A DNA stretch of 64,000 bases, from positions 192,362 to 256,361 of the forward strand of contig NZ_SRSG01000010.1 of NCBI RefSeq assembly GCF_005543295.1, read 5' to 3'. This stretch comes from Halalkalirubrum salinum (GTDB lineage: Archaea > Halobacteriota > Halobacteria > Halobacteriales > Haloferacaceae). A program made the position numbers and the translations under genes. Position 1 is the stretch's first letter. The number at the start of each line of letters is the position of its first letter. The notes under the pieces were generated by a model that made no database searches, was not told where the DNA came from, and saw only the letters and a list, made by a program, of their open reading frames with translations. Below are positions 9,980-38,780 of the stretch, one piece after another.

Positions 9980-11185
9980 ATGGCCTTGAGTATGAACTGT
10001 ATGGGCACCGCTGTCAGCGCTGGGGAGCGTTACGCCGAGTTAGCGGACTTCGTCCAGTCTGAACCCGCACTTGTCTTCGCCGGAGTCGTGTTCGCACTGG
10101 GGCTCATTGCAGCGGCGTACCTCGTCGCTCGGTGGCGGCGGCCAAAGGGGAAACGCTTCGCGAAGCTGATCGGCGAACGCGACGAGATCACGATTCTCAT
10201 GCATCCGAACCCCGATCCCGATGCCATGTCGGCTGCGATGGGGGTCGCCGCACTCGCCGAACAGTTCGATACTGAGAGCACGATCCAGTACGCCGGGCAG
10301 ATCCGCCATCAAGAAAACAGGGCGTTCCAGACGGTGTTGGACCTCGAGTTCGATCCGATCGACCACGTGACCGATCTCGACGCCGAAGATGTTGTACTAG
10401 TCGATCACAACGAACCACGGGGGTTCACCGGCGCAGACGGCGTGTTGCCGATCGCAGTGGTCGACCATCATCCAGGCGATGGCACTGGCGAGTTCTTCAC
10501 CGACGTTCGGACGGACTACGGCGCTTCTGCGAGTATCATCGCGGAGTATTTCAGAGATATTGGCGCGACGCCCGTTCCGGCCGATCGACACGCGAGTGAG
10601 ACCAGATCGAAGTACACCCTCCCCTCGGCAGTGGCGACCGGGCTACTCTGTGGGATCCTTACTGACACGAACCGACTGACGATCGGTGCGACCGCCGCAG
10701 ACTTCGACGCGGCTGCGTACCTCTATCCGGGGGTCGACGACGACAGGCTCGATCGAATCACGAACCCCGCGGTTGATGCGGAAGTGCTCGAGGTGAAAGC
10801 TCGGGCGATCGCCGGCCGGAAGATTCGAGGCTCATTTGCGGTGTGTGACGTCGGCTCGATCAACAACGCAGACGCGATTCCACAGGCGGCTGACGAACTT
10901 ATTCGGCTCGAAGGCGTGACTGCGGTAGTCATCTGCGGGGAACGCAACGGTACGCTTCATATCTCCGGGCGCTCGCGAGACGATCGAGTGCATATGGGTC
11001 GAGCGCTCGAGAACGCGGTTGAACATGTGCCGAACGCCGGCGCTGGCGGCCATGCCCGCATGGGTGGCGGGACGATACAACTACAGCCTGGATTACCCGA
11101 TGGCGGGGAGACCTCCCCAGAGTCACAGTTTTCTAGAGACTCGTTCACTGACCGACTGTTCAAAAGTCTCGCTGGCGACGTCTGA
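9980..11185 (+). CDS. membrane-anchored DHH/DHHA1 phosphoesterase
   Basis: A 401-residue protein. One hydrophobic helix (about 30-50) is followed by a basic stretch RWRRPKGKR. The DHH domain has HPNPDPDAMSAAMG, VVLVDHNEP and AVVDHHPGDG (the DHH motif). The C-terminal DHHA1 domain ends GGHARMGGGTIQL. This order is that of RecJ-like exonucleases, nanoRNases and cyclic-dinucleotide phosphodiesterases. The membrane anchor favours nanoRNase or signalling-type turnover over DNA repair (inference). ATG 9980 is followed by in-frame ATGs at 9992 and 10001; TTTAAA at about 9926-9931 is a likely TATA box. Confidence 0.8.
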   Translation: MALSMNCMGTAVSAGERYAELADFVQSEPALVFAGVVFALGLIAAAYLVARWRRPKGKRFAKLIGERDEITILMHPNPDPDAMSAAMGVAALAEQFDTESTIQYAGQIRHQENRAFQTVLDLEFDPIDHVTDLDAEDVVLVDHNEPRGFTGADGVLPIAVVDHHPGDGTGEFFTDVRTDYGASASIIAEYFRDIGATPVPADRHASETRSKYTLPSAVATGLLCGILTDTNRLTIGATAADFDAAAYLYPGVDDDRLDRITNPAVDAEVLEVKARAIAGRKIRGSFAVCDVGSINNADAIPQAADELIRLEGVTAVVICGERNGTLHISGRSRDDRVHMGRALENAVEHVPNAGAGGHARMGGGTIQLQPGLPDGGETSPESQFSRDSFTDRLFKSLAGDV

Positions 11186-11223
11186 TCCGTATCCTTTTGC
11201 GCGCTCCGAACCGACCGAACGCT

Positions 11224-12327
11224 ATGGGAACCGCGGACGGCACCTGGCGGTACCGCGATCGCTTCGGCGGATCGTACGGCCGAACATTCTTCCGGCGGTA
11301 CCCGCCTGGGGTGTGTTCGAGCATTGGGCTCGGGACGTATCTCGGCGCGGCGACTGACGAGCGCGACGAAGCGTACGTGGAGGCGATCGTCGAGGGACTC
11401 GAACACGGGGTCAACGTCGTCGACACGGCGATCAACTACCGAAATCAACGGAGTGAGCGGGCAGTCGGCGAGGCGATCGAGCGGGCCGATATCGACCGCG
11501 AGTCGATCGTGGTTTCGACGAAGGGAGGATTTCTGCCATTCGACCGCGAGCGGCCAGCAGACCCAAGCCAGTACATCCGCGAGACGTTCATCGACAGCGG
11601 GCGAGTCGATCCAGCTGGACTGGTTCGAGGCAGCCATTGCATCGAGCCAGCGTTCATTGACGACCAACTGGACGCGTCGCTCGCGAACCTCGGCGTAGAG
11701 ACGATCGACTGCTACTACGTGCACAACCCCGAGACACAGCTGCTCGAACGCGATCCAGCGGCGGTGTATGACACGCTCGAATCGACGTTCGAACGGCTCG
11801 AACGGCGGCGGGCAACCGGCGATATCCGTCAGTACGGCCTTGCGACGTGGCACGCGTTTCGAACCCCCTCATCTGACGATCGGCATCTCTCACTAGCGCG
11901 GCTGCTCGATCTTGCGGCCTCGGCAGCCGATCGGGTCGGCACAGTCGAACACGGGCTGACGACAATCCAGCTCCCGTTCAACGTTCATATGGCGGACGCG
12001 TTTACCCAGAAGTGCCAGACGGTGACTGCGGCGGACGGAACCACACGATCGGTGAGCGCGCTCGAATTCGCCCACGAGCACGGACTGTTCGTGTTTACAA
12101 GTGCGAGTATTGGACAGGGTGAGTTGTCGGAGGGGCTACCAGCAGACATTGCGGAAACAGTAGCCGGCGACACCGCAACCCAGCGGGCGATCAACTTCGC
12201 TCGAAGCGCACCGGGAGTTACCTGTTCGCTCATCGGGACCGGCTCGCGGCTGCATCTCGCAGAGAACGCCGCAGCCGGGACGTTCGATCCGTTGGGTGCG
12301 AGCGCGTTCGACGCAGTGTTCGAGTAG
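11224..12327 (+). CDS. aldo/keto reductase
   Basis: A TIM-barrel NADPH-dependent oxidoreductase. The catalytic tetrad is visible: Asp and Tyr in [14 protein letters not shown], Lys in VVSTKGGF, and His in [15 protein letters not shown] near the start is the family's opening strand. ATG 11224 (MGTADGTW) is used; nine upstream codons are possible but not conserved-looking. It lies just upstream of methylglyoxal synthase on the same strand, so reduction of methylglyoxal or its products is a plausible role. The true substrate is unknown. Confidence 0.85.
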
Positions 12328-27091: not shown

Positions 27092-28792
27092 ATGTACGAC
27101 CCCGACGAGCTCGATCGGATCCGTGAGGCGAAAGCCGAGTGGGACGAGACAACTCTCGGACCGACGCTAGAACGGTTTGGGGAGCGAAAAGAACGGTTTG
27201 CGACGGTCTCGAACCTCGAGGTCGATCGGCTCTATACCCCCGCAGATGTCGCCGAGTTGGACTACCTCGAGGATCTCGGTTTTCCGGGCGAGGAACCGTA
27301 CTCCCGTGGGGTCTACCCGACGATGCACCGCGGGCGGACGTGGACAATGCGGCAGTTCGCTGGCTTCGGGACCGCCGAGGAGACGAACGATCGGTTTCAC
27401 TACCTGATCGAAAATGGTCAGACCGGCCTTTCGACGGCGTTCGACATGCCGTCGCTTATGGGAAAAGACTCCGACGACCCCCTCTCGGACGGTGAGGTCG
27501 GCAAAGAGGGAGTCGCGGTTGACACCCTGCGTGACATGGAGATTCTCTTTGAGGGAATCGACATCGGCGAAGTGTCGACTTCTTTTACCATCAACCCGAG
27601 CGCACCGGTCATCTATGCGATGTACGTTGCACTCGCCGATAAGAAGGGCGTCCCTCGTGAGGAGATCCGCGGCACCCTCCAGAACGACATGCTCAAAGAG
27701 TTTATTGCCCAAAAGGAGTGGGTGATCCCACCGGAGCCGTCGCTGTCGCTTGTCACCGACGTGATCGAGTTTGCCGCCGCCGAAACTCCAAATTTCAAGC
27801 CGATCTCGGTGTCGGGATACCACATCCGAGAGGCTGGCTCGACGGCGATCCAGGAGCTCGCGTTTACGCTCGCGGACGGCTTCGCATATGTCGAAGATGC
27901 GATCGACCGTGGGCTCGATGTCGACGAGTTTGCGCCACAGCTATCGTTCTTTTTCAATTCACACAACTCGATTTTCGAGGAGGTCGCGAAGTTCCGCGCG
28001 GCGCGACGGATCTACGCGCAAGTCATAGACGGGTGGTACGACGCCGACGATCCGCGATCGAAACAGCTGAAGTTCCACACCCAGACCGCCGGTCAGTCGC
28101 TGACCGCCCAACAGCCGCTGAACAACATTGTCCGGGTGACGATCCAGGCGCTGGCAGGCGTACTGGGCGGTACCCAGTCGCTGCACACGAACTCCTTCGA
28201 CGAGGCGCTCGCGTTACCCTCCGAGGAGGCCGTTCGAGTCTCACTTCGGACCCAACAGATCATCGCCGAGGAGTCCGGCGCAGCCGATTCGATCGATCCG
28301 CTGGGCGGGAGCTTCATGATCGAGTCGCTCACTGACGAGACCGAACAGAAGGCGATGGCCTACATCGAGGAGATCAAATCGATGGGCGACGGCTCAATCC
28401 GCGACGGCGTGCTCGCCGGGATCGAGGAAGGCTACTTCCACCGGGAGATCCAAGACGCCGCCTACGAGTATCAATCGCGGGTCGAAGCCGGCAAAGAGAC
28501 TGTCGTGGGAGTGAACAAATACACGATCGATGAGGATACGAGTCCGGATCTCCTCCACGTCGACGAGACGACCCAGGACAGACAGCTCGATCGACTCGAA
28601 TCGGTGAAAGCCGATCGCGACGACGCGGCCGTCGATCGCACACTGGGAGAACTCGAGGCGGCGATTGATGCCGGCGAAAACGTCATGCCGGCGATGGTCG
28701 AGGCGGTAAAAGCGTATGCAACAATGGGCGAGATTATGGATATCTTCGAGGCCAAACACGGTAGCTATCAGGAAATGGTTCGGCTCACGTAG
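27092..28792 (+). CDS. mcmA: methylmalonyl-CoA mutase, large (catalytic) subunit
   Basis: A 566-residue TIM-barrel subunit without the C-terminal cobalamin domain, as in the split archaeal enzymes. Family motifs include GVYPTMHRGRTWTMRQFAGFG, TGLSTAFDMPSLMGKDSDD, SVSGYHIREAG, EEVAKFRAARR and KFHTQTAGQSLTAQQPLNN. It interconverts methylmalonyl-CoA and succinyl-CoA using adenosylcobalamin. The small B12-binding subunit is not in this window. A cobalamin ABC transporter is present at 55.6-59.2 kb. The gene opens the acyl-CoA block of the window. Confidence 0.9.
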   Translation: MYDPDELDRIREAKAEWDETTLGPTLERFGERKERFATVSNLEVDRLYTPADVAELDYLEDLGFPGEEPYSRGVYPTMHRGRTWTMRQFAGFGTAEETNDRFHYLIENGQTGLSTAFDMPSLMGKDSDDPLSDGEVGKEGVAVDTLRDMEILFEGIDIGEVSTSFTINPSAPVIYAMYVALADKKGVPREEIRGTLQNDMLKEFIAQKEWVIPPEPSLSLVTDVIEFAAAETPNFKPISVSGYHIREAGSTAIQELAFTLADGFAYVEDAIDRGLDVDEFAPQLSFFFNSHNSIFEEVAKFRAARRIYAQVIDGWYDADDPRSKQLKFHTQTAGQSLTAQQPLNNIVRVTIQALAGVLGGTQSLHTNSFDEALALPSEEAVRVSLRTQQIIAEESGAADSIDPLGGSFMIESLTDETEQKAMAYIEEIKSMGDGSIRDGVLAGIEEGYFHREIQDAAYEYQSRVEAGKETVVGVNKYTIDEDTSPDLLHVDETTQDRQLDRLESVKADRDDAAVDRTLGELEAAIDAGENVMPAMVEAVKAYATMGEIMDIFEAKHGSYQEMVRLT

Positions 28793-28864: not shown

Positions 28865-30817
28865 ATGGATGCGCCCACGGGCGATCGGTCCTCGTCCGAC
28901 GAACCACCGTTCGATGATCCAATCGAGCCGCCGACAGCGTTCGTCGAAACCGCCAACGTGTCAGATCGATCGATCTACGAGCGGTTCGACCGCTCGTGGC
29001 CTGCGTGTTGGGGCGAGGCAGCGGCGCTGCTCGAGTGGGAGGCCCCCTACGAGACGGTGTTGGACGACACGGATGCGCCGCTGTATCGCTGGTTTTCGGA
29101 CGGCGAGCTGAACGCCTCGTACAACTGTCTCGATCGACACCTTGAGGAGCGCAAAAACCAGGTCGCGATCACGTGGATCGGCAAGCGTGACGAGCGCCAG
29201 AGCTATACCTACCTCGATCTCCACCGGGAGGTCAATGCGGCAGCAGCAGCCCTCCGAGAGCTCGGCGTCGAGGCCGACGACGTCGTCACGCTGTACCTCC
29301 CGATGATCCCACAGCTACCGATTATGATGCTCGCGTGCGCGCGGATCGGCGCGCCCCACAACGTCGTCTTCGCGGGGTTGTCCGCGGAGGCGCTCGCCCA
29401 GCGGATGGGGGCTGCAGAGTCCGAAGTACTCGTGACGTGTGACGGCTACTACCGCCGCGAGGACGCGTTCAATCAAAAGAGCAAGGCCGATAACGCCCGG
29501 ATTCGACTCGACTACGACCTCTCGGCAATGGTCGTCGTCGATCGACTCGGTCCAGAACTTGCCGTGCATCTCGGGAACAACGAATACGACTATGACGAAC
29601 TCGTGACGGCACACCGAGGCGAGACCGTCGAGCCGGTCGCCCGAAACGCGACAGACCTGCTATTTGTGATGTACACGTCCGGGACGACCGGCGAGCCAAA
29701 GGGCGTCGAACACGCGACGGGCGGGTACCTTGCACACGTCGCATGGACGACGCAAGCAGTGTTAGACGTAAAGCCCCAAGACACCTACTGGTGTGCAGCC
29801 GACATCGGCTGGATTACCGGCCACTCCTATGGGGTGTACGGCCCGCTCGCGCTCGGGACCACCTCGATCGTCTACGAGGGGACTCCCGATTATCCGGACA
29901 GAAACCGAATCTGGGAGCTCATCGAGCGAAACGCGGTAAACGTGTTCTACACCGCACCGACAGCGATCCGATCGTTTATGAAGTGGGGCGCGGAGTTTCC
30001 CGAGCGCCACGATCGCTCGTCGCTGCGGTTGCTCGGAACCGTCGGTGAGGCGATCACCCCACGGGCATGGCGGTGGTACCGCGAGCACGTCGGCGACGGA
30101 GAGACCCCGATCGTCGACACGTGGTGGCAGACCGAAACCGGTGCGATACTACTCGCGACGCTGCCGGGACTCTCGAAGATGAAGCCGGGCGCGGCGGGCC
30201 CGCCACTACCAGGCATCGACATCGCGGTCGTCGACGAGACCGGTGAGCCGATCGCGCCGGGTGAAACAGGATATCTCACGGTAACGAAGCCGTGGCCCGG
30301 GATGTTGCGCGGCCTGCGCGGCGGCACGGATCGATACATCCGCGAGTACTGGCGCGAGACCGACAACGGATGGGCGTATCAGACGGGTGACGGCGCGACG
30401 ATCGACGAGGACGGCTACGTGACGATTCTCGGGCGAGTTGACGACGTGATCAACGTCGACGCCCACCGACTGACAACGACCGAACTGGAGGCGGCGATCG
30501 TCGAGGTACCGGGGGTAACAGAAGCGGCCGTGGTCGGCGACGGGGCAGGACTGATCGCGTTTGTGACGGTTCGTCACGACACCGGCGAGGACGAAAAGTT
30601 GCGTGAGGCGATCCGCGCACGGTTGCGTGAGGCGATCGGAGCGGTCGCAGTCCCCGATCGAATTGTGTTCACGCCCGAACTCCCGAAGACGCGGTCCGGA
30701 AAAATCATGCGTCGCCTCCTCGAAGATATCGCGTGTGGCAACGAGTTCGGCGACATCAGTGCGCTCAGGAATCCCGAGGTCGTCGGAGAGATCAGTTCGA
30801 CGATCGGAAATACGTAA
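28865..30817 (+). CDS. acetyl-CoA synthetase-like AMP-forming ligase, divergent paralogue
   Basis: A 650-residue ANL-superfamily enzyme of the Acs type. Adenylation motifs are YTSGTTGEPKG and DTWWQTETG; the C-terminal catalytic Lys is in PKTRSGKIMRRLL. It departs from canonical Acs (and from the second copy at 33989) at two sites: GEP near the AMP pocket is GEA, and the VSGHRLGT hinge/CoA segment is VDAHRLTT. The hinge Gly lines the CoA site in bacterial Acs. With mcmA just upstream, a propionyl-CoA or other short acyl-CoA ligase is a reasonable guess. Confidence 0.8.
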   Translation: MDAPTGDRSSSDEPPFDDPIEPPTAFVETANVSDRSIYERFDRSWPACWGEAAALLEWEAPYETVLDDTDAPLYRWFSDGELNASYNCLDRHLEERKNQVAITWIGKRDERQSYTYLDLHREVNAAAAALRELGVEADDVVTLYLPMIPQLPIMMLACARIGAPHNVVFAGLSAEALAQRMGAAESEVLVTCDGYYRREDAFNQKSKADNARIRLDYDLSAMVVVDRLGPELAVHLGNNEYDYDELVTAHRGETVEPVARNATDLLFVMYTSGTTGEPKGVEHATGGYLAHVAWTTQAVLDVKPQDTYWCAADIGWITGHSYGVYGPLALGTTSIVYEGTPDYPDRNRIWELIERNAVNVFYTAPTAIRSFMKWGAEFPERHDRSSLRLLGTVGEAITPRAWRWYREHVGDGETPIVDTWWQTETGAILLATLPGLSKMKPGAAGPPLPGIDIAVVDETGEPIAPGETGYLTVTKPWPGMLRGLRGGTDRYIREYWRETDNGWAYQTGDGATIDEDGYVTILGRVDDVINVDAHRLTTTELEAAIVEVPGVTEAAVVGDGAGLIAFVTVRHDTGEDEKLREAIRARLREAIGAVAVPDRIVFTPELPKTRSGKIMRRLLEDIACGNEFGDISALRNPEVVGEISSTIGNT

Positions 30818-30859: not shown

Positions 30860-32059
30860 GTGAGTAGCCGACGCGAGCCGACCCCGCCCAGCGAGCGAAT
30901 CGTCAGCATCGACGTGCTTCGTGGGTTCGCCCTGCTTGGTATCCTCTTGATCAACGTGTGGGTTTTCGCGATGCCAGAGGTGACGCTGTCGAATCCCACA
31001 GTTTACGGCGATTTTAGCGGAGCCAACTACGCCGCGTGGTTCGCCAGTCACGTCCTCGCCGAGGGGAAGATGATCTCAATCTTCACACTGCTTTTCGGCG
31101 CGGGCGTGTTGCTTTTCACCGAGAACAAACCTGGAAACGCCATCGGGCTGTTCCAGCGGCGCAACGCGTGGTTGCTCGTGATCGGACTGGCGCACGCGTA
31201 CCTGCTTTGGTACGGCGATATACTCGTTACCTACGCGCTGTGTGGGTTCGCCGTGGTGTACATCCGCGAGTGGCCCGCCCGGACCCAGATCAGCGTTGGA
31301 ATCGCACTGCTTGCGATCATTTCTGTCTCTGAGCTGGCGGTGGCGATCTCAGTCGGGGAGGACGCGATCCGCGCCCAGTGGGAGCCGACCACGGCGGCGC
31401 TGCAATCGGAGATCGAGACCTACCGATCGGGCTGGCTCGCGCAGATGGACCACCGCGTCCCGACCTCGTTCCGCCGGCAGACAAGCGGCTTCATCGGCTA
31501 CTCGGCCTGGCGAGTCGGTGGGCTCATGGCGATCGGCATGGGGCTGTACAAATCCGGCGTGTTAACGAACGAGCGATCGGCCCGAGAGTACCGCAGGCTG
31601 GCACTGGCGAGCGGGACTTTCGGGTTCGCGATGGTTCTCGCCGGCGTGTGGTACATCACAGCCGCCGACTGGAGCGCCGGGGCAGCGCTGTATTTCCGGC
31701 AGTTCAACCACTGGGGGAGCCTGTTTGTCGCAGTCTGTTACGTTTCGGGCATCATGTTGTTTTGCCGCCGATGGGGCGAGGGGATCGTCGCAGGCGCACT
31801 CGCGGCGGTCGGCCGAACCGCACTGTCGAGCTACCTGCTGCAGACTGTGTTGGCCACGTTGATTTTCTACGGTCATGGGCTCGGCCTGTTCGGCTCGGTG
31901 AGCCGCGTCGAGATGCTCGGTGTCGTGGGTGTGATCTGGGCGGTGCAGCTCCCGCTATCGGTGCTGTGGCTTCGGTACTTCCGATTCGGGCCGATCGAGT
32001 GGCTCTGGCGGACCGCAACCTACGGCGAACGACAACCGCTTCGGAAAGAGAGATCGTAG
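30860..32059 (+). CDS. DUF418 membrane protein (YeiB-like)
   Basis: A 399-residue multi-pass protein. It opens with RIVSIDVLRGFALLGILLINV, the heparan-acetyltransferase-like/DUF418 signature, and continues through FHLLFGAG-type (SIFTLLFGAGVLLF) and GRTALSSYLLQTV near the end. About ten helices. The start is GTG 30860. It lies 42 bases after the ligase gene on the same strand. The family is thought to include acyl transfer or transport proteins; no substrate is known. Confidence 0.82.
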   Translation: MSSRREPTPPSERIVSIDVLRGFALLGILLINVWVFAMPEVTLSNPTVYGDFSGANYAAWFASHVLAEGKMISIFTLLFGAGVLLFTENKPGNAIGLFQRRNAWLLVIGLAHAYLLWYGDILVTYALCGFAVVYIREWPARTQISVGIALLAIISVSELAVAISVGEDAIRAQWEPTTAALQSEIETYRSGWLAQMDHRVPTSFRRQTSGFIGYSAWRVGGLMAIGMGLYKSGVLTNERSAREYRRLALASGTFGFAMVLAGVWYITAADWSAGAALYFRQFNHWGSLFVAVCYVSGIMLFCRRWGEGIVAGALAAVGRTALSSYLLQTVLATLIFYGHGLGLFGSVSRVEMLGVVGVIWAVQLPLSVLWLRYFRFGPIEWLWRTATYGERQPLRKERS

Positions 32060-32181: not shown

Positions 32182-32215
32182 TTTATTATTTCGTAATTTC
32201 GTAGTAAAACGAAAT
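32182..32215 (+). promoter_or_regulatory. promoter/operator of the integrase-Bat regulator
   Basis: TTTATTATT (32182-32190) sits 24-32 bases before ATG 32214, a leaderless arrangement. ATTTCG occurs twice as a direct repeat (32188-32193, 32196-32201) and once inverted as CGAAAT (32210-32215), spanning from the TATA box to the start codon. This is a plausible autoregulatory site. Confidence 0.45.
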
Positions 32216-33920
32216 GAGCGGATCGGACCTTGGCGTGAGCGAGCCAGCGTACGAAGCACTCGTCGAGCACGCGCCGACTCACCAGGCGGCGATCGCCGTC
32301 CGGCTAGGGGGCGAAGCCGGCCTCCGGAGCGCGGAGATCCCACGCGTTCGGCCGAGGGGTCTCGATCGGAGCGGGCGGGTAACGGTGCTTTCGGTGCCTG
32401 GCGAGACGGGGATCGACAGAACCGTACCGCTTTCGAGCTCGCTTGTCGCGGCGCTCGATCGGTACGCCGACACCGCTGGGGTTGACAAGGAGACACCGTA
32501 CGTGCCGGTGTCGGTCCGTCGGGTGCAGATGCTGGTCACAGAAGCGGCAACAGCGGCTGAAGCAGCCGTGGGGATCGATCCAGACGGGATCACACCCTCG
32601 GCGCTCAGACAGCGCTTCGCGCGGACGCTGCTTCGCGAGCGTGGCGTCGATCCGCGGATTGTCCGTGCGATCGGCGGCTGGGCGTCGCTCGGATCGCTCG
32701 ATCCCTACGTCGAGGAACCGCCGCAGTCGGAGATCATCAGGGCGTTTACAAATCCTGCACAGCACTCCGATAAACAAGCAACTGCGGGCTGGCTTGTGGC
32801 TGCCGTTGAGGCGATCATCGAAAGTACTGATCGGAAAACGCTGTACCGTCGCGTCGTCGAAGCGTTCGTATCTGTTGATCGGTGGGAATACGCATGGATT
32901 GGGCGTCGCGACCACAATGCTCAGGAGACGGCAGTGCTTGAGATCGCACCAAAGCCCGAACAGACGAACGGTCTACAGACGGTGGATCAATCGTTCGAGA
33001 TGTCCCACGAAGAGGTGCCTGATGCGGGAACAGACCCGTTCGTCTCCGCAGACCAGACGACAGCGGCGGTCGCGTGCGCAGACGGCGAATCGACGTACAG
33101 CATCCTCTGCGTCCGTGCGAGCGACGGTCATCCAATTGAACCGGCAGACAAACAGGCGCTTTCGATCATCGGCCGTGGTGTAGGACAGACAATCACGGCG
33201 TATCGCTGGCGAGATCTGTTACACTCGGATACGGCCCTCGCCCTCGATCTCGCCGTAGAAGACAGGGGAGCGTTTCTCACCGCGGTAAGCGCAGAACTCG
33301 GCTGTCAACTGCGGCTCAACTCGACAATCGCTGTGTCGAATACGGCCCTACTGTGCTACGTAACAGTCGTGGGTGCGACCGCCAAGGCCGTCGCAACAGT
33401 CGCCGATCGATTCGAAGCGATTGATGATCTCCGTGTCGTCAATACAGTCGAAAACGGCGCGACTGTCGGGTTCGTCGCTCGCGGCGATTCAATTGTCCAC
33501 GGGATCACGATGCAGGGAGCGCAGGTCCGAACAGCGAACGCTGCGGAGGGACGGCTTGACGTCGTCGCAGCGGTACCCACGGGAACAGACGTTCGTGCGA
33601 TTCTTGACGGTCTTCGTGTGGACTATCCCAAAACCAGACTTGTTCGACGGCGGACAATCGATCGCCCGCCGACGCCCGCGGAAAATCCTCGTAATGAACT
33701 GCTTGAGGGATTGAGCGATCGCCAGCGCGCGACGATTGAGGCGGCCTACCGCGGCGGCTACTTCGATTGGCCTCGCGGCAGCACGGCCGAGGAGATGGCT
33801 GACGCCATGGACATCTCATCGCCGACGTTCCACAATCACCTGCGGAAAGCCCAACGGGCGCTGTTGGATGCAGTGTTCGAGACGGTCAGTGGCGAACAGA
33901 TGGCGAACAGACAGCTCTAA
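32214..33920 (+). CDS. Bat-type HTH regulator with N-terminal tyrosine-recombinase fold
   Basis: A 568-residue protein. Residues 1-175 look like a tyrosine recombinase catalytic domain: GLRSAEI (first Arg), TVPLSSSL, TPSALRQRFARTLL (HxxR-like with His replaced by Ser), GGWASLGS and DPYVE (Tyr position). About 185-335 is a GAF-like sensor, about 350-500 the Bat domain, and 505-557 the HTH_10 (LSDRQRATIEAAYRGGYFDWP). The recombinase part is probably a DNA-binding relic. It lies between the two acs-type genes and likely regulates them. Confidence 0.78.
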   Translation: MSGSDLGVSEPAYEALVEHAPTHQAAIAVRLGGEAGLRSAEIPRVRPRGLDRSGRVTVLSVPGETGIDRTVPLSSSLVAALDRYADTAGVDKETPYVPVSVRRVQMLVTEAATAAEAAVGIDPDGITPSALRQRFARTLLRERGVDPRIVRAIGGWASLGSLDPYVEEPPQSEIIRAFTNPAQHSDKQATAGWLVAAVEAIIESTDRKTLYRRVVEAFVSVDRWEYAWIGRRDHNAQETAVLEIAPKPEQTNGLQTVDQSFEMSHEEVPDAGTDPFVSADQTTAAVACADGESTYSILCVRASDGHPIEPADKQALSIIGRGVGQTITAYRWRDLLHSDTALALDLAVEDRGAFLTAVSAELGCQLRLNSTIAVSNTALLCYVTVVGATAKAVATVADRFEAIDDLRVVNTVENGATVGFVARGDSIVHGITMQGAQVRTANAAEGRLDVVAAVPTGTDVRAILDGLRVDYPKTRLVRRRTIDRPPTPAENPRNELLEGLSDRQRATIEAAYRGGYFDWPRGSTAEEMADAMDISSPTFHNHLRKAQRALLDAVFETVSGEQMANRQL

Positions 33921-33988
33921 TAAAAATGATTATTTTGTATAATTAGCACCCCCGTTTATTAGGGCATACTAATTGTATTACGATAGCC

Positions 33989-35968
33989 ATGACAGATGAT
34001 GACGGAGAACTCGAAGCACGGCTGGCCGAAGGTGAGTCCTTCGAACCACCCGCGTCGTTCGTCGAACAGGCGAACGCGGCTGATCCAGCCATATACGAAG
34101 AGTTCGAAGAGAACTGGCCGGAGTGTTGGGAGCAAGCAGCCGACCTCATCGATTGGTACGAAGACTACGACGAGGTATTAGACGAGAGCAACGCCCCGTT
34201 TTACGAGTGGTTCGTCAACGGAAAGACAAACGCCTCGTACAACTGCCTCGATCGCCACCTCGAAGACCGTGGGGACGAAATCGCCCTCCAGTGGGTCGGT
34301 GAGCCAGTTGATGAGGCAGACCGAGCGTTCACCTACGAGGAACTCCACAAAGAGGTAAACGAGTTCGCAGCTGGGCTTCGCGATCTCGGCGTCGAAGCGG
34401 ACGACGTCGTTACCATGTACATGCCGATGGTCCCCGAATTGGCGATCGCGCTGTTAGCGTGTGCACGCATCGGCGCGCCTCACAGTGTCGTCTTCGCAGG
34501 CTTTTCTGCAGACGCGCTCGCGACGCGAATGAACGCTGCAGAGTCGGAGTATCTCCTGACATGTGACGGCTACTACCGACGAGGTGACCCGCTCGATCAC
34601 TTCTCGAAGGCGAACAATGGACTGTCTGGGGTTGACCACGACGTCTCGACGATCGTCGTCGATCGGCTGGGCGACGACGGCTTCGGCCACGATCTGAGCG
34701 ACGACCAGACCGCCTACGCCGATCTCATTGCCGAAAACGAGGGCGCGACGGTCGAACCGGTCGAACGCGACGCTGAGGACATGCTGTTTTTGATGTATAC
34801 CTCAGGAACGACGGGCAAACCGAAGGGAGTCAAACACACAACGGGCGGCTATCTCTCGTGGGCCGCCTGGACCGCACAGAACGTTCTCGACATCAAGCCC
34901 GAAGATACCTACTTCTGTTCGGCCGATATTGGCTGGATTACCGGGCACTCGTACATCGTCTACGGCCCGCTCGCGCTCGGGACGACGACGATGATGTACG
35001 AGGGGACCCCGGATTACCCGGACAAAGATCGCCTCTGGGAAATCATCGAAGAGTACGAGGCAACGCAACTGTACACTGCGCCAACGGCGATCCGGGCGTT
35101 CATGAAGTGGGGTAGATCCTATCCGGATAAACACGACCTCTCCTCGCTACGCTTGCTCGGGACGGTCGGCGAGCCGATTAACCCCCGCGCCTGGAAGTGG
35201 TACTACACCCACATCGGCGACGAGGAGTGTCCGATCGTCGACACGTGGTGGCAGACCGAGACCGGCGGGATGATCGTGACGACGCTTCCAGGGCTTAAAA
35301 CGATGAAACCAGGGTCGGCCGGACCGCCACTGCCGGGTGTCGACGTACGTGTGGTCAATGTCGCCGGCGAGGAGGTCGATCCCGGGCAGGCAGGGTACCT
35401 CACCGTTCACAAGCCGTGGCCAGGCATGTTGCGGACGCTGTACAACAACGATGAGCGGTTCATCAAGGAGTACTGGCAGGAGTACTCAGATCCAGAGGCC
35501 GACGAGTGGGTGTACTTCCCTGAAGACGGGGCAAAAATCGACGATAACGGCTACATCACTGTCCTCGGACGGGTCGACGACGTAATCAACGTTTCCGGGC
35601 ACCGGCTGGGGACGATGGAGATCGAATCAGCGATCGTCGGCGTCGAGGGCGTCGCCGAAGCCGCGGTTGTCGGGGGCAGCCACGACATCAAAGGCGAGGC
35701 CGTCTACGCCTACGTCATCACCGAAGAGGGATACGAAGAGAACGAAGAACTCCGCCAGCGGATCATCGACGGCGTGAATGAGGCGATCGGGCCGATCGCA
35801 AAGCCCGAATCGGTCGTGTTCACCCCGGAGCTGCCGAAGACGCGATCGGGCAAGATCATGCGGCGGCTGCTCGAAAACATCGCCAACGGCGAGGAACTCG
35901 GGAACACGAGCACGCTGCGAAACCCTGACGTCGTCGAAGACATCCAAGCGAGGGCACAAAACAGCTAA
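33989..35968 (+). CDS. acs: acetyl-CoA synthetase (AMP-forming)
   Basis: A 659-residue canonical Acs. All family motifs are intact: YTSGTTGKPKGVKHTTGG, GTVGEPINPRAW, DTWWQTETGG, GRVDDVINVSGHRLGT and PKTRSGKIMRR (adenylation Lys, a common acetylation target). Acetate plus ATP and CoA give acetyl-CoA, AMP and PPi. TTTATTAG 27-34 bases before ATG 33989 is a good TATA box. Downstream are a DUF4212 protein and a sodium-solute symporter, consistent with acetate-type uptake. Confidence 0.93.
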   Translation: MTDDDGELEARLAEGESFEPPASFVEQANAADPAIYEEFEENWPECWEQAADLIDWYEDYDEVLDESNAPFYEWFVNGKTNASYNCLDRHLEDRGDEIALQWVGEPVDEADRAFTYEELHKEVNEFAAGLRDLGVEADDVVTMYMPMVPELAIALLACARIGAPHSVVFAGFSADALATRMNAAESEYLLTCDGYYRRGDPLDHFSKANNGLSGVDHDVSTIVVDRLGDDGFGHDLSDDQTAYADLIAENEGATVEPVERDAEDMLFLMYTSGTTGKPKGVKHTTGGYLSWAAWTAQNVLDIKPEDTYFCSADIGWITGHSYIVYGPLALGTTTMMYEGTPDYPDKDRLWEIIEEYEATQLYTAPTAIRAFMKWGRSYPDKHDLSSLRLLGTVGEPINPRAWKWYYTHIGDEECPIVDTWWQTETGGMIVTTLPGLKTMKPGSAGPPLPGVDVRVVNVAGEEVDPGQAGYLTVHKPWPGMLRTLYNNDERFIKEYWQEYSDPEADEWVYFPEDGAKIDDNGYITVLGRVDDVINVSGHRLGTMEIESAIVGVEGVAEAAVVGGSHDIKGEAVYAYVITEEGYEENEELRQRIIDGVNEAIGPIAKPESVVFTPELPKTRSGKIMRRLLENIANGEELGNTSTLRNPDVVEDIQARAQNS

Positions 35969-36076
35969 TATAGGCATTATTGAGCAGGAACTGATCGGCT
36001 GGTGACAGCCGGTCGATCGATCTCGTGTAGACACCTGAACACAAACCACAATGAGAAAATACGCTCCCAAACAGCA

Positions 36077-36481
36077 ATGACAGACACTGACAGCCACGAT
36101 GCCGCGACCGATTGTTCCGTCGAGACTGACGGCGGTGTGACCGCGGGTGCAGCACAGGCGCATCGACAGACAGACTACCTCAGCTCGGAGGTAAACCTGC
36201 TCAAGCCGAGTACGCCCTACATGCGCGAACACCTCCGCATCGTCTGGACCGGCTTCATTATCTGGGCGCTCGTTGTGTTCGGGCCGGTCACACTCACACG
36301 GCTGGCACCGGAGATGATGACCGTCGAGATGCCAATACTTGGATTTCCACTGCACTATTTCCTCGTCGCGATCGGCGCGCCCGGCGGTGCGTTGATCCTG
36401 TCGGCGTGGTACGCCTGGCGGCGAGACGCACTGGATGAGAAGTACGGAATCGAACACGACATCGTGGAGGGCGAGCCATGA
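36077..36481 (+). CDS. DUF4212 small subunit of sodium/solute symporter
   Basis: A 134-residue protein. A soluble acidic N-terminus is followed by YLSSEVNLLKPSTPYMREHLRIVW and two membrane helices (about 60-82 and 95-117). This is the small partner of VC_2705-type SSS transporters. ATG 36077 (MTDTDSHD) is used; the earlier frame is not conserved-looking. Its TGA overlaps the symporter ATG (ATGA), the usual coupling of this pair. Confidence 0.85.
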   Translation: MTDTDSHDAATDCSVETDGGVTAGAAQAHRQTDYLSSEVNLLKPSTPYMREHLRIVWTGFIIWALVVFGPVTLTRLAPEMMTVEMPILGFPLHYFLVAIGAPGGALILSAWYAWRRDALDEKYGIEHDIVEGEP

Positions 36482-38322
36482 GCAAAGCACTCACCATCGT
36501 TCTGCAGTCGGAGTTGCTCCCGGAGGGACTCAACGTCTCGTTCAAGACGCTGCCGGCGATCCTTGTGATCGGGATGCTCTTGGTGTTTATTGCGATCGGC
36601 TTCATTTTCCGGGTTGCTGATGCCGAGAACATGTGGGTTGCCGGGCGGTCGATCGGCAACCTCGAAAACGGGATGGCGATCGGTGCAAACTGGATGTCTG
36701 CGGCGTCATACCTCGGGATGGCAGCGTCGATCGCGCTGTCTGGCTTTTACGGGCTGGTGTTTGTCGTCGGCTGGACGACGGGCTATTTCATTTTGCTCAT
36801 CTTCCTGGCCGCACAGCTTCGCCGATTCGGCAAGTACACCGCACCAGATTTCGTCGGTGATCGGTTTAACTCAGACACGGCGCGGGCGATCGGCGCGGTC
36901 ACGACGTTCCTGATCGGGTTCGTCTACGCGATCGGACAGGCCCGCGGGATGGGCCTCGTTGGCCTGTACATTTTCGGCGATCTGGGTATTCTCGGTCTGA
37001 GCGGCTACCAGGCGATGGTCATCATCATGATGGCCATTACCGTCGGCTACCTGACGTTGTCGGGAATGTTGGGTGCGACGAAGAACATGGCCGTCCAGTA
37101 CGTCATCTTGATTATCGCGTTCGTCGCCGGACTGTACGCGGTTGGGTTCGTAAACGGCTACTCGACGGTGCTGCCACAGATCGAATACGGCGCACTCATT
37201 GGCGAGCTCAGTAGCGAATTCTCCGAGCCGTTCGTCGGCGAAGGCTACTACCTGTGGATCGCAACCGCCTTTTCGCTCATCGTCGGAACCTGCGGGCTTC
37301 CGCACGTCCTCGTGCGCTTTTACACGGTCGAAAACGAGCGGACTGCGCGGTGGTCGACCGTCTGGGGACTGTTTTTCATCTGCATCCTCTATTTGAGCGC
37401 GCCGGCGTTCGCGGCGTTCGGGACCGACCTGTACGGCAGTGAGCTCGGTGCAGTGTACGGTGATCCCGGGATGACCGCCGAGGCGGCCGACGTGATTGTC
37501 GTGCTTGCCACACAGCTTTCAGGGCTCCCGGAGTGGTTCGTCGGATTGGTCGCGGCTGGCGGTATTGCAGCGGCGATCGCAACCACCGCTGGGCTGTTCA
37601 TCGCCGGCTCCTCGGCGATCTCACACGACATCTACACGAACATCATCAATCCCGAAGCGACCCAGCGCCAGCAGGTCTTCGTCGGGCGGCTGAGCATCGT
37701 TGCGCTCGGAGTCATCACGACGCTCGCGGCACTGGATCCGGCGGCCCCGATCGCCGCGCTTGTCTCCTACGCGTTTTCGTTGGCCGGCGCGGTGTTGTTC
37801 CCGATGTTCTTCCTCGGAATGTGGTGGGAGAACACAAACAGACAGGGCGCGCTTGCAGGCATGACGACAGGGCTCACCATCTGGTTTATTCCAATGATAA
37901 ACGAAGTCGTCCCAACGTATATCAGCGGCCTCGATGCACCGCTGAACGCGACGCTCGAACAGTGGGTGCCTGCGATCGGCTCTGCGCTCGTCGCTGTCCC
38001 AATCGTGTTCGCAGTGACGATCGTCGTGTCGCTGCTCACCGATGAGCCGCCGATAGAGACAAAACGAATCGTCCGACAGTGTCACAGTCCAGAGCCGATG
38101 CGTCAACAGCAGACTGCCGAAGACGTTGTCGCAGCTGACGGTGGGGAAGACGTCGCGACCGATGGCGGCCAGGACGTCGCGACCGATGGCAGCCAGGACG
38201 TCGCGACCGATGGCGGCCAGGACGTCGCAACCGATGGCAGCCAGGACATCGCGACCGATGGCGGCCAGGACGTTGCGACTCATCGCGACGAAGACGTTGC
38301 GACGGACGGAGGTGAGTGCTAA
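36478..38322 (+). CDS. sodium:solute symporter (VC_2705/ActP-like) with repeat tail
   Basis: A 614-residue SSS-family transporter. About 13 membrane helices fill residues 20-525; MWVAGRSIGNLENGMAIGANWMSAASYLGM is the N-terminal sodium-binding region. The C-terminal ~75 residues are soluble and acidic, built from an eight-residue repeat (DGGQDVAT/DGSQDVAT) encoded by 24-bp units. Normal relatives are about 530-560 residues, so the tail is extra. The likely substrate is a short organic acid such as acetate given the acs gene upstream. Its stop overlaps the next start (TAATG). Confidence 0.85.
   Translation: MSKALTIVLQSELLPEGLNVSFKTLPAILVIGMLLVFIAIGFIFRVADAENMWVAGRSIGNLENGMAIGANWMSAASYLGMAASIALSGFYGLVFVVGWTTGYFILLIFLAAQLRRFGKYTAPDFVGDRFNSDTARAIGAVTTFLIGFVYAIGQARGMGLVGLYIFGDLGILGLSGYQAMVIIMMAITVGYLTLSGMLGATKNMAVQYVILIIAFVAGLYAVGFVNGYSTVLPQIEYGALIGELSSEFSEPFVGEGYYLWIATAFSLIVGTCGLPHVLVRFYTVENERTARWSTVWGLFFICILYLSAPAFAAFGTDLYGSELGAVYGDPGMTAEAADVIVVLATQLSGLPEWFVGLVAAGGIAAAIATTAGLFIAGSSAISHDIYTNIINPEATQRQQVFVGRLSIVALGVITTLAALDPAAPIAALVSYAFSLAGAVLFPMFFLGMWWENTNRQGALAGMTTGLTIWFIPMINEVVPTYISGLDAPLNATLEQWVPAIGSALVAVPIVFAVTIVVSLLTDEPPIETKRIVRQCHSPEPMRQQQTAEDVVAADGGEDVATDGGQDVATDGSQDVATDGGQDVATDGSQDIATDGGQDVATHRDEDVATDGGEC
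38137..38304 (+). repeat. 24-bp tandem repeat inside the symporter gene
   Basis: Seven consecutive 24-bp units start at 38137, 38161, 38185, 38209, 38233, 38257 and 38281. The five central ones differ at only a few bases. Units alternate GGC/AGC at one codon, giving DGGQDVAT and DGSQDVAT in turn, which suggests duplication of a 48-bp double unit. The first and last units are more diverged. Confidence 0.9.
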
Positions 38323-38780
38323 TGTACGATCGGATTCTCGTGCCGACCGACGGCAGCGACGTGGCAGAGACCGCACTGAATCACGCGCTTGATCTCGCCG
38401 ACAGGTACGACGCAGAAATTCACACACTGTACGTGGTCGACATCGATTCAGTTAACCTCAGCTTAGGGACCGAGCAGGTCGATCGGCTCAAGCAGGGCCA
38501 CTACGAGGAAATGGACGAGGTTCGCGACCGTGCGGATGCCGCGACGGGGACGATCGCCAACCGCGCTACCGCACACGGAATCGACGTCGTAGAACATGTC
38601 TCGGCGGGCCGACCACACAAGCTCATTGCCGAGTACGCCGAAAACCACGACATCGACCTCATCGTGATGGGCAGCCACGGCCGCGCAGGCGTCCGGCGGG
38701 CACTGCTCGGGAGTGTGACCGAGCGGACGCTGCGATCGACGCACGTCCCGGTGTTGGTGGTCGATCACCACCCCGAGTAG
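38322..38780 (+). CDS. universal stress protein (UspA family)
   Basis: A 152-residue UspA domain. DRILVPTDGSDVAETAL opens the fold, and the ATP-binding motif GSHGRAGVRRALLGSVTERTL closes it, followed by VPVLVV. ATG 38322 overlaps the symporter stop by one base (TAATG), so it is translationally coupled to the transporter; haloarchaeal transporters are often paired with Usp domains. A regulatory, nucleotide-sensing role on transport is plausible. Confidence 0.88.
   Translation: MYDRILVPTDGSDVAETALNHALDLADRYDAEIHTLYVVDIDSVNLSLGTEQVDRLKQGHYEEMDEVRDRADAATGTIANRATAHGIDVVEHVSAGRPHKLIAEYAENHDIDLIVMGSHGRAGVRRALLGSVTERTLRSTHVPVLVVDHHPE

Follow-up and report, generated by a model that had tools for sequence, protein, structure and literature searches.

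The window analysed here is a stretch of 64,000 nt from Halalkalirubrum salinum (assembly GCF_005543295.1, contig NZ_SRSG01000010.1, positions 192,362–256,361 of the forward strand). Near its middle lies an open reading frame coding for a multidomain regulator, which we named REG and to which all residue numbers in the text refer. REG is part of a cassette with the gene order acs-REG-acs-DUF4212-SSF-(Usp), and the genes, domains and DNA elements discussed below are listed in Table 1. The first-pass annotation of this DNA had placed the regulator between two acs-type genes. This holds insofar as both neighbours are of the acetate–CoA ligase type (TIGR02188, above cut-off), with the correction that an additional gene, coding for a DUF418/YeiB-like membrane protein, is inserted on the upstream side; among the features listed for the 85 other REG loci described below, none matches YeiB. 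The two acs genes flanking REG are the sole pair of Acs genes in the H. salinum genome with more than 60% mutual identity.

Table 1. Genes, domains and DNA elements of the REG locus (positions within the window).
Feature	Position	Strand	Basis or remark
Upstream acs-type gene	28865..30817	+	TIGR02188; counterparts in relatives without upstream element
DUF418/YeiB-like membrane gene between upstream acs and REG	30860..32059		Pfam
Putative autoregulatory operator TTTCG-N16-CGAAA	32189..32214		Ends on the A of the REG start codon
REG (integrase-like + GAF-like + BAT + HTH_10), 568 aa	32214..33920	+	
Integrase-like domain of REG, aa 14-167	32253..32714	+	Pfam, XerA alignment, predicted fold
GAF-like region of REG, aa ~200-337, putative sensor	32811..33224	+	Fold, GAF_2 in relatives, inference
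BAT domain of REG, aa 339-490	33228..33683	+	Pfam
HTH_10 domain of REG, aa 500-551	33711..33866	+	Pfam
Putative upstream activating element TTTTGTATAATTAG	33933..33946	+	8 bp before TATA-like box
TATA-like box TTTATTAG of downstream acs promoter	33955..33962	+	
Downstream acs (acetate–CoA ligase), likely main target	33989..35968	+	
DUF4212, small subunit of sodium:solute symporter	36002..36481	+	
SSF symporter, VC_2705 family large subunit (ActP-like)	36478..38322	+	
Universal stress protein-like gene	38316..38780	+	ORF; position homologous to Usp genes in relatives

The unusual architecture of REG was confirmed: an integrase-like domain, a GAF-like region, a BAT domain and an HTH_10 domain are encoded in one ORF. 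Pfam recognized Phage_integrase (PF00589) with an E-value of 2.4e-10 (40.9 bits against a cut-off of 27.1), BAT with 1.5e-33 and HTH_10 with 4.1e-19, and the combination of BAT with a C-terminal HTH_10 makes REG a Bat-type (HTH_10) regulator, as the first-pass annotation had recognized. The GAF-like region has no Pfam match in the H. salinum protein; in four of the five relatives scanned, GAF_2 was found there as a weak match below the curated cut-off, and one of the five (L126) has PAS domains in this region. The AlphaFold2 model of full-length REG reached a pLDDT of 83, with the HTH part weaker.

The architecture as such is already in print. Family fam30-04 of the archaeal tyrosine recombinases (Badel et al., 2021; PMC8371274) combines Phage_integrase, BAT and HTH_10 in the same protein, some members having GAF_2 as well; the available text describes the family by its domains only and is silent on function, loss of the active site, gene neighbourhood and DNA elements. 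The regulators Bat, NarO and DmsR share with REG the BAT and/or HTH_10 C-terminus, and each is an activator of one metabolic gene set, i.e. the bop, denitrification and DMSO respiration genes respectively (PMC11218638, PMC3184054). In the portions of these papers at hand they are described with or without PAS/GAF domains, but none with an integrase-derived domain.

The N-terminal part of REG had been supposed to follow a recombinase layout, and this is now supported by three lines of evidence. Besides the Pfam match, the archaeal XerA (PDB 4a8e) matches the N-domain by sequence (E 3.5e-9), and the fold predicted by AlphaFold2 from 31 related N-domains is that of a tyrosine recombinase (pLDDT 93, pTM 0.86). 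The nearest solved structure is XerA again (5hxy, Z 18.7, rmsd 3.5 over 167 residues); other tyrosine recombinases come next in the ranking, and then two repressors, SroF (Z 14.3) and YopR/MrpR (Z 12.7–13.3). The structure alignments held 32 (A2) and 31 (A3) sequences, the window sequence included, from the 49 available plus the window; five REG loci were left out of them. Because sequence, profile and fold all agree, a chance match or a mis-annotated integrase was rejected.

Alignment with XerA showed that REG keeps R38, R132, W156 (at the H/W position) and Tyr165. The HxxR motif reads S129-A-L-R132, so that the Arg is kept while the His is replaced by Ser, as had been noticed from the sequence of the window; the catalytic Lys of the beta2-3 loop, which the annotation did not mention, is lost as well. 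The same residues were then scored in 116 distinct fused homologues (a set of 86 proteins plus further named loci, minus duplicates). R132 is present in all of them, R38 in 104 and W156 in 107, and His129 in only five; Tyr165 is found in 69 and absent from 47, the Haloferax version (L130) having Leu at this position. A Lys anywhere in the beta2-3 loop occurs in five proteins, none of which has His129, and five proteins carry R, HxxR, W and Tyr together. The full R-K-HxxR-H/W-Y set of a catalytic recombinase was found in none of the 116, and the doubt expressed earlier about strand transfer thus appears well founded as far as sequences can tell.

Loss of the catalytic set is not accompanied by decay. 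Mean pairwise identity among REG relatives is 0.47 for the N-domain, compared with 0.31 for the GAF-like region, 0.39 for BAT and 0.73 for the HTH; because the N-domain is better conserved than the GAF-like and BAT parts, the view that it is a decaying relic was rejected. Four arginines (R69, R102, R103 and R132) are invariant in the fused N-domain (116/116 each), and Q105 (113/116) and M106 (115/116) are nearly so. Among these conserved residues of the fused domain, R69 and R132 are common to the fused and the stand-alone proteins described in the next paragraph.

Of the proteins found, those most closely related to the fused domain are stand-alone haloarchaeal integrases of about 200 aa, with no BAT/HTH fusion. 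A phylum scan with an N-domain profile, which picked up fused as well as stand-alone proteins and served solely for finding the latter, provided a set of 20 of the stand-alone places (L215–L234). These proteins share sequence and fold of the N-domain with REG, as does XerA (5hxy, 4a8e), and in all 20 the residues R, His, R, W and Tyr and the loop Lys are complete. Their short length leaves little space for a core-binding domain. A tree built from 86 fused domains and 20 stand-alone ones split the two groups with support 100/99; it has long branches, the window sequence among them, and its finer branching was not used. We infer from these sequences that the fused N-domain was exapted from a stand-alone integrase of this kind, i.e. 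that it was captured, lost catalysis and was kept for another role.

A comparable fate is known from phages. MrpR (YopR), the master repressor of the Bacillus phage SPbeta, has a recombinase fold and has lost the recombinase function (PMC10516654). Loss of active-site residues in a recombinase fold is common to MrpR and REG, with no close sequence kinship being claimed; the available text also shows that MrpR differs in being a bacterial phage repressor with a core-binding domain, in which Lys and Tyr are kept and other residues are lost (PMC10516654). SroF of phi3T, which matched REG in the structure ranking, is also a phage repressor with a recombinase fold, judging from its PDB title. By analogy with MrpR, DNA binding by the recombinase fold of REG is plausible.

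The conservation of the cassette was studied in 85 REG-anchored loci, i.e. 80 genome stretches and 5 plasmids, which were chosen by similarity to REG and are therefore not a random sample (mostly full-length matches, some with a split match). An acs gene is present on both sides of REG and on the same strand in 81 of the 85 loci, and DUF4212 and SSF also follow downstream in 78; the five plasmids show the same cassette order. Three of the four remaining loci end at or near contig edges; the loci of the 85 that end at a contig edge are L076, L079 and L081. The link to acs genes suggested by the first-pass annotation is, therefore, far stronger than one genome could show.

A reverse check started from the best 80 loci of the downstream acs in named genomes, selected without requiring REG, 75 of which had enough upstream sequence. 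REG was immediately upstream in 52 of these 75, a second acs preceding it in 52 of 52. Another 18 were lone acs genes, and the last five (L186, L191, L193, L201 and L211) carry DUF4212-SSF-Usp with no adjacent REG, so the acs-DUF4212-SSF operon can live without REG at that place. The 22 other BAT/HTH_10 places in the H. salinum genome served as a control: all lie more than 8 kb from any Acs gene (E < 1e-100), the nearest at about 8.8 kb on contig C22.

The downstream part of the cassette matches in its order the acs7-HVO_A0155-ssf-uspA28 operon of Haloferax volcanii, which is acetate-induced and gives a transcript of about 4600 nt on acetate; with glucose or casamino acids no transcript was obtained (PMC7746861). 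Going by locus numbers, the REG homologue of H. volcanii is probably HVO_A0157, which would fall between acs8 and acs7. A keyword search of the main text of that study found no mention of a regulator gene. ACS5 and ACS8 of the same organism are reported as uninvolved in acetate activation (PMC7746861); judging from its locus number, ACS8 is likely the counterpart of the upstream acs.

Upstream of the TATA-like box of the downstream acs, a conserved element was recognized. The pattern TAG-N8-NTTA occurs in 111 of 119 distinct downstream-acs promoters, with TTnnnnTAnTTAG strongly preferred before it, and the remaining eight contain variants of the element as judged by eye; the spacing between element and TATA box is fixed at 8 bp across these promoters. 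Scoring covered 80 acs-anchored loci, five of which are short upstream; of these five, two with REG were counted within the 54 loci with REG, and three were left ungrouped. With a leave-one-genus-out matrix, at least 10 bits were reached by 46 of the 54 loci with REG, compared with 2 of the 23 acs loci that lack an immediately preceding REG (Fisher p 2e-10, loci being counted as independent despite their kinship). It should be noted that most of the counted promoters share ancestry (Halorubrum is the label of 30 of the 54 REG loci), so that these tests overstate independence. Of the 15 genus labels, 11 reach 10 bits, and the eight other REG loci score lower; in this labelling, two Halobellus species were split, Halomicroarcula was counted as Haloarcula and a Halobacteriales MAG (L142) as Halorubrum. 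An all-locus matrix, which includes the tested sequences, gave 53/54 with REG vs 3/23 without at 10 bits, and 52/54 vs 2/23 at 15 bits.

The two REG-less loci that still have the element in the leave-one-genus-out scoring are L199 and L201. In the L199 assembly no match to the N-domain was found at E 1e-25, and the element is nevertheless present. In the genome of L201 (Natronomonas gomsonensis), REG is located about 4 kb before the stretch examined, and the downstream-type acs operon at 10001–11965, which has the element and no adjacent REG, thus lies near a REG-containing region; it is possibly a duplicated target. Three of the loci having DUF4212-SSF-Usp with no adjacent REG (L186, L191 and L193) are also without the element, which suggests another regulator there.

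At the upstream acs, the element was found at none of 52 promoters at 15 bits and at one of 52 at 10 bits; at 15 bits it was likewise missing before REG (0/43) and before DUF4212 (0/32). The first-pass annotation had suggested that the protein might regulate both acs genes. Regulation of both through the same element was rejected, because the element is missing at the upstream acs; the reported non-involvement of ACS5 and ACS8 in acetate activation in H. volcanii (PMC7746861), with ACS8 as the likely upstream counterpart, also speaks against this part of the proposal. In the H. salinum genome, the combined pattern of the element has a single exact match, and two others at three mismatches.

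A second element is found at the start of REG itself, where an inverted repeat fills the space from the TATA box of REG to its start codon. The exact repeat is present in 69 of 141 distinct REG upstream regions, and with at most one mismatch in 108 of 141, the corresponding numbers for shuffled sequences being 0 and 2. The core TTCG-N15/16-CGAA is found in 119 of the 141 regions, against a shuffled mean of 0.38. These 141 regions keep nine loci without REG immediately upstream (L154, L160, L181, L191, L193, L201, L204, L205 and L212). Other spacings of TTTCG and CGAAA are far rarer, and a spacing of 21 with one mismatch is seen in 26 of the 141 regions. At the acs promoters, TTTCG-N16-CGAAA was not found with up to one mismatch.

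In the H. salinum genome, the bare repeat has seven exact sites, of which that of REG and one other (L240) were inspected. The form preceded by TA has one copy, located at REG. The inspected L240 site, which is also AT-rich, falls in the 3' end of a gene resembling, from its translation, an IclR-type regulator; it looks like a chance occurrence. Considering the chance-like L240 site and the one exact and two three-mismatch matches of the upstream element, a wide regulon in H. salinum was rejected. At the starts of the stand-alone integrases, the repeat was found in one of 20 cases, and there inside the frame. Autoregulation of the stand-alone integrases through the same repeat was therefore rejected, and because these proteins do not have the repeat at their starts, they provide no connection between it and the integrase-like domain. 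The overall length of the 26-bp TTTCG-N16-CGAAA is not far from that of a recombinase core site.

Acetate ranks among the important carbon sources of haloarchaea. Bat-type archaeal activators are expected to act at an element placed a constant distance ahead of the TATA box, as in the bop promoter, which has an upstream activator sequence with a TATA box. A repressor is expected to act at an inverted repeat between the TATA box and the start codon. The element preceding the TATA box at the downstream acs and the repeat over the start of REG therefore led us to propose activation of the operon and self-limitation of REG. The best reading of the locus is that REG probably activates the downstream acs-transport operon and controls its own gene. 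More specifically, REG would be a dedicated regulator of acetate uptake and activation with a non-catalytic, integrase-derived N-domain, limiting itself via the inverted repeat; we give this proposal a probability of about 0.68. Its BAT-HTH_10 part would function as a Bat-type activator, switching on acs-DUF4212-SSF-Usp from the upstream element, and REG would bind TTTCG-N16-CGAAA at its own start to limit its expression. The signal, for which the first-pass annotation had suggested acetate or the redox state, is likely to be acetate-related, because the homologous H. volcanii operon is acetate-induced. The sign of regulation in both cases, activation and autorepression, is deduced from the positions of the elements. 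In addition, since it is not evident that the two elements share one sequence, their being read by one protein is an assumption, and a factor other than REG could read either of them.

As for the N-domain, its role would most likely be in DNA binding or in holding REG as a dimer on DNA. A tentative extension of the proposal, which we consider rather doubtful in this specific form, is that the N-domain, captured from the integrase of a mobile element, is a second, specific DNA-reading head, placed on the 26-bp repeat and repressing REG, the upstream element being left to HTH_10 for activation of the operon. If this were true, it would be a cellular case, outside phages, of a recombinase exapted as a transcription factor, conserved across many haloarchaeal families. 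It is also possible, if again on the unlikely side, that REG regulates the acs operon with HTH_10 alone reading both elements, and that the integrase-derived domain is a scaffold for dimerization or signal sensing located off the DNA. The HTH being the best conserved part (0.73), the catalytic Lys and His being gone from the fused domain and the repeat being missing at the starts of stand-alone integrases are all in favour of such a scaffold; however, the invariant or nearly invariant residues of the fused domain include arginines and former active-site residues (R69, R102, R103, R132 and W156).

An improbable explanation is that the two elements belong to other factors, such as a global regulator at acs and another repressor at REG, and that REG controls something else. 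Binding of REG to the elements is a prediction, and a few acs loci do have the upstream element and no adjacent REG. However, elements are found at both ends of REG, the upstream element tracks the presence of REG (46/54 vs 2/23), and the H. salinum genome contains one exact upstream element and one TA-preceded repeat. That the N-domain, despite its altered active site, continues to process DNA enzymatically (by nicking, relaxation or recombination), the locus being switched by a DNA change, is very hard to maintain: R38, R132, W156 and Y165 are kept in REG, Tyr is present in 69 of the 116 proteins and five have R, HxxR, W and Tyr together, but the full set occurs in none, Tyr is missing in 47, the Tyr-less Haloferax version has the same cassette and the same elements, and cassette order and strand are constant in nearly all loci.

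In the literature searched, mostly outside subscription journals, we found no published function, active-site loss, regulator-bearing cassette or DNA elements for proteins of this type. Beyond the domain listing of fam30-04 and the H. volcanii operon study, no characterized acetate regulator of the REG type was found, and the papers found name no regulator for a haloarchaeal acetate uptake operon. What is new here is the evidence for exaptation, the conserved cassette with its regulator and the two conserved DNA elements; the architecture had already been published as fam30-04. The cassette and the two short elements give a direct prediction that is testable in Haloferax, a standard laboratory archaeon. 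REG is also a clear case, in a cellular genome, of an integrase domain under selection after losing its catalytic set, and is relevant to the frequency with which recombinases turn into transcription factors, which the MrpR study asks about (PMC10516654).

Two further features of the window may be mentioned. Directly before the upstream acs, at 27092–28792, lies a methylmalonyl-CoA mutase-like gene (from reading of the translation), found also in L050 and L114; this neighbour points, tentatively, to propionate as a substrate of the upstream acs. Finally, a 24-bp tandem repeat (38149–38279, 5.5 copies, 91% match) lies at the 3' end of the symporter gene; it encodes a tail of repeated (G/S)QDVATDG units that extends past the region matching the SSF profile (aa 53–465 of 614).
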